Below, one piece after another: positions 13,499 to 13,626 of a stretch of DNA of 64,000 nt. The position numbers were made by a program, and so were the translations under genes. The DNA lies in the NCBI RefSeq assembly GCF_006351005.1, contig NZ_VENP01000005.1, positions 1 through 64,000 of the forward strand, written 5' to 3'. The notes under the pieces were generated by a model. That model was not told where the DNA came from. It saw nothing but the letters and a program-made list of their open reading frames with translations, and made no database searches. Position 1 is the stretch's first letter. Each line of letters begins with the position of its first letter. The DNA is from Miniimonas arenae (lineage in GTDB: Bacteria; Actinomycetota; Actinomycetes; Actinomycetales; Beutenbergiaceae).

Positions 13499-13626
13499 TA
13501 GGGTGGCGAGCGTGCGACTGTCGGCGCTCCTCCTTCGGTGCCGCGACGAGGTCCTGTAACGGCCGGACCCTCGTTGCGGCGACCGTCATGCGCCCGGCCG
13601 GCCCACAGCCCAGCACAGAGGACGTC
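13499..13626 (+). promoter_or_regulatory. leuA leader RNA: promoter, leader peptide and candidate attenuator/pseudoknot
   Basis: A TAGGGT -10 element (13499-13504) sits seven bases before the leader peptide GTG, suggesting a leaderless leader transcript. Two helices are visible. A 12-bp hairpin pairs 13540-13551 (the last leader codons) with 13569-13580, with one G-U wobble. GGCCGG at 13561-13566, inside that hairpin loop, can pair with CCGGCC at 13594-13599 or 13598-13603. Together they would form a pseudoknot ending about 20 bases before the leuA ribosome site. Ribosome stalling at the Leu codons would change which helices form. Leucine-leader control of actinobacterial leuA has been proposed before (recalled, not checked); the fold here is my manual pairing. 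Confidence 0.65.
13512..13559 (+). CDS. leuL: leuA leader peptide (leucine-rich)
   Basis: A 15-codon open frame reading [15 protein letters not shown], then TAA. Five of the fifteen residues are leucine, including three in a row (CTC CTC CTT at 13527-13535). It lies 67 bases upstream of leuA in the same orientation. Such peptides act as leucine sensors: scarce Leu-tRNA stalls the ribosome and alters the downstream RNA fold. GTG at 13512 is seven bases from a TAGGGT -10 sequence, so translation may begin at the 5' end of the mRNA. The peptide itself probably has no other role. Confidence 0.75.

Follow-up and report, generated by a model that had tools for sequence, protein, structure and literature searches.

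A LEU element was proposed in 2005 upstream of actinobacterial leuA genes, on computational grounds and from some twenty genomes (Seliverstov et al., PMC1262725). It combines (i) a leucine leader peptide, (ii) a pseudoknot, and (iii) a base stem between the Leu codons and the leuA Shine-Dalgarno sequence (SD), without a terminator; its mechanism was left open. In Streptomyces lividans, the leuA leader—encoding the peptide LeuL1, MRFGLLLLSCRGEGL—is leaderless by RNA-seq and is also without a typical terminator (PMC8079986). Classical leucine attenuators (the E. coli leuL type and the S. lividans leuS leader) likewise have, before a leucine gene, a short open reading frame (ORF) with consecutive Leu codons, and carry a U-run terminator. 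In ermC-type translational attenuation, a ribosome stalled on the leader frees a hidden SD, and the signal is an antibiotic.

The locus reported here lies in the window, a 64,000-nucleotide stretch of the Miniimonas arenae genome (contig NZ_VENP01000005.1). It is a LEU element, and differs in nothing essential from the published description. It is the same module as that of S. lividans LeuL1; the RNA model R1 matches elements in genomes encoding the LeuL1 peptide (e.g., loci L127, L129 and L131). In place of the U-run terminator of the classical attenuators, the window has a pseudoknot and an SD pairing. The would-be release of the SD by a ribosome stalled on the leader ORF is shared with the ermC type; however, the signal in the window would be a lack of charged tRNA rather than an antibiotic, and the putative sensor codons are themselves the anti-SD strand. 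What goes beyond the text of PMC1262725 is the testing of covariation and codon use on a large scale, the leaderless geometry in many families, and the elements before other leucine-pathway genes.

The leuA leader region of M. arenae

The features of the locus, and the evidence for each, are as follows.

13499–13504, + strand: −10 box TAGGGT of the leader promoter (sequence, homologous leaders, S. lividans RNA-seq in PMC8079986)
13512–13559, + strand: leader ORF of 15 codons, GTG start, TAA stop (sequence; LLLxCRxEA type in 104/109 homologous regions)
13527–13535, + strand: Leu codons CTC CTC CTT, putative sensor codons and anti-SD strand (sequence, codon bias, matched-partner test)
13540–13551, + strand: 5' arm of hairpin H1, GCCGCGACGAGG, within the leader ORF (11 conserved pairs, 96.5% paired cells, two-sided changes in 5)
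13561–13566, + strand: pseudoknot 5' arm GGCCGG, in the H1 loop (alignment and own-partner test)
13569–13580, + strand: H1 3' arm, CCTCGTTGCGGC, non-coding (same covariation alignment as the 5' arm)
13594–13599 (alternative register 13598–13603), + strand: pseudoknot 3' arm CCGGCC (alignment and own-partner test)
13618–13622, + strand: leuA SD core GAGGA, potential pairing partner of the Leu codons (sequence; folding-predicted pairing)
13627–15411, + strand: leuA, 2-isopropylmalate synthase, 594 aa (NCBIfam TIGR00970; Pfam)

An initial annotation of this DNA, made from the sequence alone, had placed the −10 box, the 15-codon ORF, the three Leu codons, the hairpin and GGCCGG correctly; the CCGGCC that it gave at 13594–13603 is in fact two overlapping registers, 13594–13599 and 13598–13603. 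Two features were absent from it: the complementarity between Leu codons and SD, and the expected leaderless translation of the leader. The −10 box is separated from the GTG start (13512) by a 7 nt spacer, from which we infer a transcription start at about 13511–13512 and hence a leaderless leader ORF. Within the Leu codons, UCCUC (13528–13532) is complementary to the leuA SD. H1 (GCCGCGACGAGG:CCTCGTTGCGGC) comprises 12 bp, including one G-U, and 67 bases lie between the leader stop codon and the leuA start. The identity of LeuA is supported by a score of 813.7 bits against TIGR00970 (cut-off 697.4) and by the Pfam domains HMGL-like, IPMS_D2 and LeuA_dimer. Read from the ORFs, the gene order in 10718–17247 appears to be era, a hydrolase-like gene, leuA, recO and uppS.

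The claim that a U-rich terminator is missing was borne out: zero intrinsic terminator-like sites were found in 13350–13750. No Rfam family, riboswitches and T-boxes included, reached its gathering score in the leuA upstream region, and a permissive search gave nothing above chance. The model-free fold z-score of the site is −2.5.

Conservation and covariation among relatives

A LeuA search was run across 198 genomes of the window's order, and the upstream regions of 109 matches were read. Of these, 104 have the same module upstream of leuA: a leader ORF containing two or more consecutive Leu codons is followed, mostly one codon on, by the same H1 core. The module is also present in 79/79 named actinobacterial loci, in agreement with the previously suggested link to the actinobacterial LEU elements of PMC1262725. 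Among named relatives, Georgenia and Oceanitalea come closest in leuA; the family Cellulomonadaceae, named in the initial annotation, was not confirmed. An RNA model built from relatives, the window sequence itself being one of its 79, gives the window site 66.6 bits (E 5.7e-13); the next match in the window has 20.2 bits, and the site is the sole significant match in the 3.4-Mb genome. R1 also gives weak matches elsewhere in this genome; those below 26 bits resemble chance matches in coding sequence.

Pair covariation was assessed in an alignment of 79 non-redundant cores. For H1, 96.5% of cells are paired and both sides have changed in 5 of 11 pairs; compensatory changes in relatives, the absence of which had been named as a refutation of the initial annotation, were thus found. 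For the pseudoknot the values are 85.3% and 4 of 5 pairs. Across the whole structure 93.1% of cells are paired, versus at most 63% when the partner is slid, and in both counts the true structure lies above all six slid versions in paired cells and covariation score. For the pseudoknot taken alone, the two-sided pair count does not exceed that of shuffles (145/500) and is surpassed by one slid version; for this reason, we relied on an alignment-free test of whether arms fit their own partner. Pseudoknot duplexes come to −15.6 kcal/mol with their own partner versus −14.2 when permuted (0/5000 permutations), with a median p of 0.017 when one sequence is taken per family. The test gave 0/5000 again on 61 distinct named sequences—a repetition that is not fully independent, as the named set shares some genomes with the first—and 4/5000 on 23 elements other than the main leuA element. 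The pseudoknot of the initial annotation is thereby supported. Its typical loops (2 bases separating the pseudoknot arm from that of H1, 9–14 bases across H1) fit an H-type pseudoknot on an 11–12 bp stem. The description of the LEU element also includes an alternative hairpin on the base stem; in this regard, the consensus fold lengthens H1 into the loop (columns 27–28 with 45–46), which would compete with the pseudoknot.

The leaderless geometry is likewise conserved. A TAnnnT motif lies 4–9 nt before the leader start codon in 99 of the 104 homologous leaders; the spacing is 6 or 7 nt in 92 of them, versus 0.6 expected from upstream sequence. The named set, which is largely Streptomyces, differs in that its commonest spacing is 9–10 nt.

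The frame relationship between leader and leuA bears on programmed frameshifting, by which the pseudoknot, lying a few bases beyond the Leu codons, would shift ribosomes into the leuA frame and so produce a longer LeuA. The window does have an open leuA frame through the leader region. Among the 104 relatives, however, leuA is in frame 0 to the leader in 35, in frame +1 in 36 and in frame +2 in 33, and its frame is open in no more than 36. Such random frames refute frameshifting as a general function, and we give the idea next to no credence.

Leu codons as anti-SD strand

The pairing between Leu codons and SD shows the same preference for its own partner: the duplexes come to −10.3 kcal/mol versus −9.1 when permuted (0/5000). 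When each family contributes a single sequence, the preference is weaker yet present (median p 0.033); on the named genomes the test gives 24/5000. Variants of the SD are mirrored by synonymous codon changes, such as GAGAAG with CTTCTC in loci L057 and L074. Of the 104 leaders, 86 close their Leu run with CTT and 13 with CTC, while CTT makes up 1.7% of Leu codons in the bodies of 25 leuA genes. Judging from these sequence patterns, the Leu codons appear to be chosen for SD complementarity, mimicking the anti-SD. CTC and CTT are normally decoded by the same tRNA, yet CTT dominates the last codon; the choice of tRNA isoacceptor is therefore unlikely to be the whole reason for the CTC/CTT pattern.

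Folding predictions were made with five 3' lengths. With a ribosome positioned on the final Leu codon, predicted SD exposure rises from 0.20–0.25 to 0.38–0.42 (91–98 sequences, all five lengths); with the ribosome at the stop codon, predicted exposure is only somewhat below that with the stalled ribosome, which counts against the attenuator reading given below. Imposing the pseudoknot increases predicted Leu:SD pairing, in the window from 0.02–0.15 to 0.63–0.66 for four of the five lengths. For the window alone, as free RNA and without the pseudoknot, the predicted unpaired fraction of the SD varies with the 3' cut from 0.09 to 0.59. Because its outcome depends on the chosen 3' end, this single-sequence fold was dropped as proof of SD hiding, and the population result alone is used. 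Replacing the window's Leu codons in silico altered predicted exposure little (0.42 to 0.48) and was uninformative.

A proposed mechanism

We consider it reasonably likely that the LEU element is a leucine-responsive translational attenuator, and that leucine shortage probably turns leuA on. The leuA mRNA would begin at or beside the leader GTG, so that a ribosome would load straight onto the leaderless ORF. With charged tRNA-Leu plentiful, it would clear the Leu codons fast and depart; H1 and the pseudoknot could then form and clamp UCCUC against GAGGA, leaving leuA poorly translated. With charged tRNA-Leu scarce, the ribosome would stall on CTC CTC CTT, covering the anti-SD strand and the foot of H1; the SD would then be free, and leuA translated.

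The initial annotation had suggested that leader stalling could set how accessible the leuA ribosome site is. The anatomy fits this suggestion, and the Leu-codon:SD pairing adds to it; the stall, the direction of the leucine response and control at the level of translation are what we infer, and mutagenesis in S. coelicolor is ambivalent. As summarised in one passage of PMC1262725, mutating the Leu codons of the S. coelicolor leuA leader produced some effect at odds with classical attenuation; in another passage of the same paper, such mutations were without influence on regulation. Altering the Leu codons would remove the sensor and the SD clamp at once, and a mixed outcome of mutagenesis would therefore be expected.

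Leader translation might instead decide whether Rho gains access, or whether RNA polymerase pauses, ahead of leuA; that is, transcription may be attenuated without an intrinsic terminator. Mycobacterial work lends this some weight: M. tuberculosis has an sRNA-like leader transcript upstream of leuA, with bands of 85, 65 and 45 nt (PMC3526491), and the mycobacterial branched-chain leader ilvB1 works by transcription attenuation (PMC13236596). Attenuation of transcription would, however, leave without a role both the conserved complementarity of Leu codons and SD and the bias towards anti-SD codons, and the lack of terminator-like sites around the leader also speaks against it. We regard it as unlikely, and as the foremost of the alternatives to translational attenuation.

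Elements before other genes and in other lineages

With the R1 model, the element was found in 332/396 genomes of the order, and also in Streptomyces-type and further families. Strong LEU elements (60–66 bits) precede leuA in loci L118 (genome G387) and L122 (G302), which belong to the same phylum and another class.

Family f19 has two elements in nearly every genome; the second, where read, precedes leuC. In f19 loci L144, L149, L154, L155, L158, L159 and L161–L163, a LEU element lies directly upstream of leuC and is leaderless where checked; those genomes also carry a LEU element upstream of leuA. In several families, a second, divergent leuA has its own LEU element (L128, L138, L168, L186–L190), and the H1 core of such elements is sometimes GCCACGGCGGG in place of GCCGCG. 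A LEU-like element with a weaker H1 precedes an MFS transporter in L193 (G438, of the window's own family) and L192 (G464); the leaders read MTEWLILRRRVRT or MPQQLLLCCRSRC, each followed by a stop, and the transporter has a Pfam MFS_1 match, tested on L193. A link between this transporter and leucine is possible.

In families f17 and f2, what follows the element is a conserved microORF of 20–26 codons (MSEEAQKARQALQESMDLREQGHSDD type), mostly adjoining leuB (L139/L208, L141/L206, L164, L165, L166/L202, L204, L205). Synonymous variation suggests that the microORF is translated. Where leuB is present downstream, it appears to be served by a separate promoter of leaderless type. L199, L200, L201, L203 and L207 also have this microORF, with no element recognised there; in L203 the next gene reads as ilvD, and a scan there found no recognisable element core. 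The leaders of the microORF elements have mixed Val/Ile/Leu codons in the Leu slot (VVILI, LVIL, VVLI, LII, LIL). A literature search limited to open papers did not find these occurrences before other genes.

The composition of this slot bears on whether the leader peptide could be secondary, with a protein that binds the pseudoknot setting leuA expression. The pseudoknot is compact and conserved, and PMC1262725 reports phylogenetic co-occurrence for its candidate binders, orthologues of ML1624 with a DEAD-box domain. Yet the leader frame, start, leaderless geometry and Leu run are kept in 104/109 regions, and the slot before the microORF holds other branched-chain codons rather than arbitrary ones, which makes a protein-set switch quite improbable. 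Still less credible is arrest by the nascent peptide, in which LLLxCRxEA itself would stall the ribosome. The peptide beyond the Leu run is rather conserved; however, H1 pairing with the non-coding arm explains this conservation, residues vary where the RNA pair covaries, and the microORF-element leaders end in SSRGEFR or IRRGEFR.

We see an even chance that the LEU pseudoknot belongs to a broader class of translational switches that can be tuned to different amino acids: a single conserved leaderless RNA module, with interchangeable sensor codons in a fixed slot beside H1 that double as anti-SD. If so, sensing and output would share the same nine bases, with Leu codons before leuA, leuC, the second leuA and the MFS transporter, and Val/Ile/Leu mixtures before the microORF.

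Significance

The window element is real and well conserved; the evidence for it is stronger, and its mechanism sharper, than published, and a wider family is possible. The LEU element now has covariation support across 18 families, a leaderless start and a testable codon rule. If the proposed mechanism is right, it would represent a widespread and directly testable form of leucine control in actinobacteria, industrial Streptomyces included, with a LEU regulon that would extend beyond leuA.
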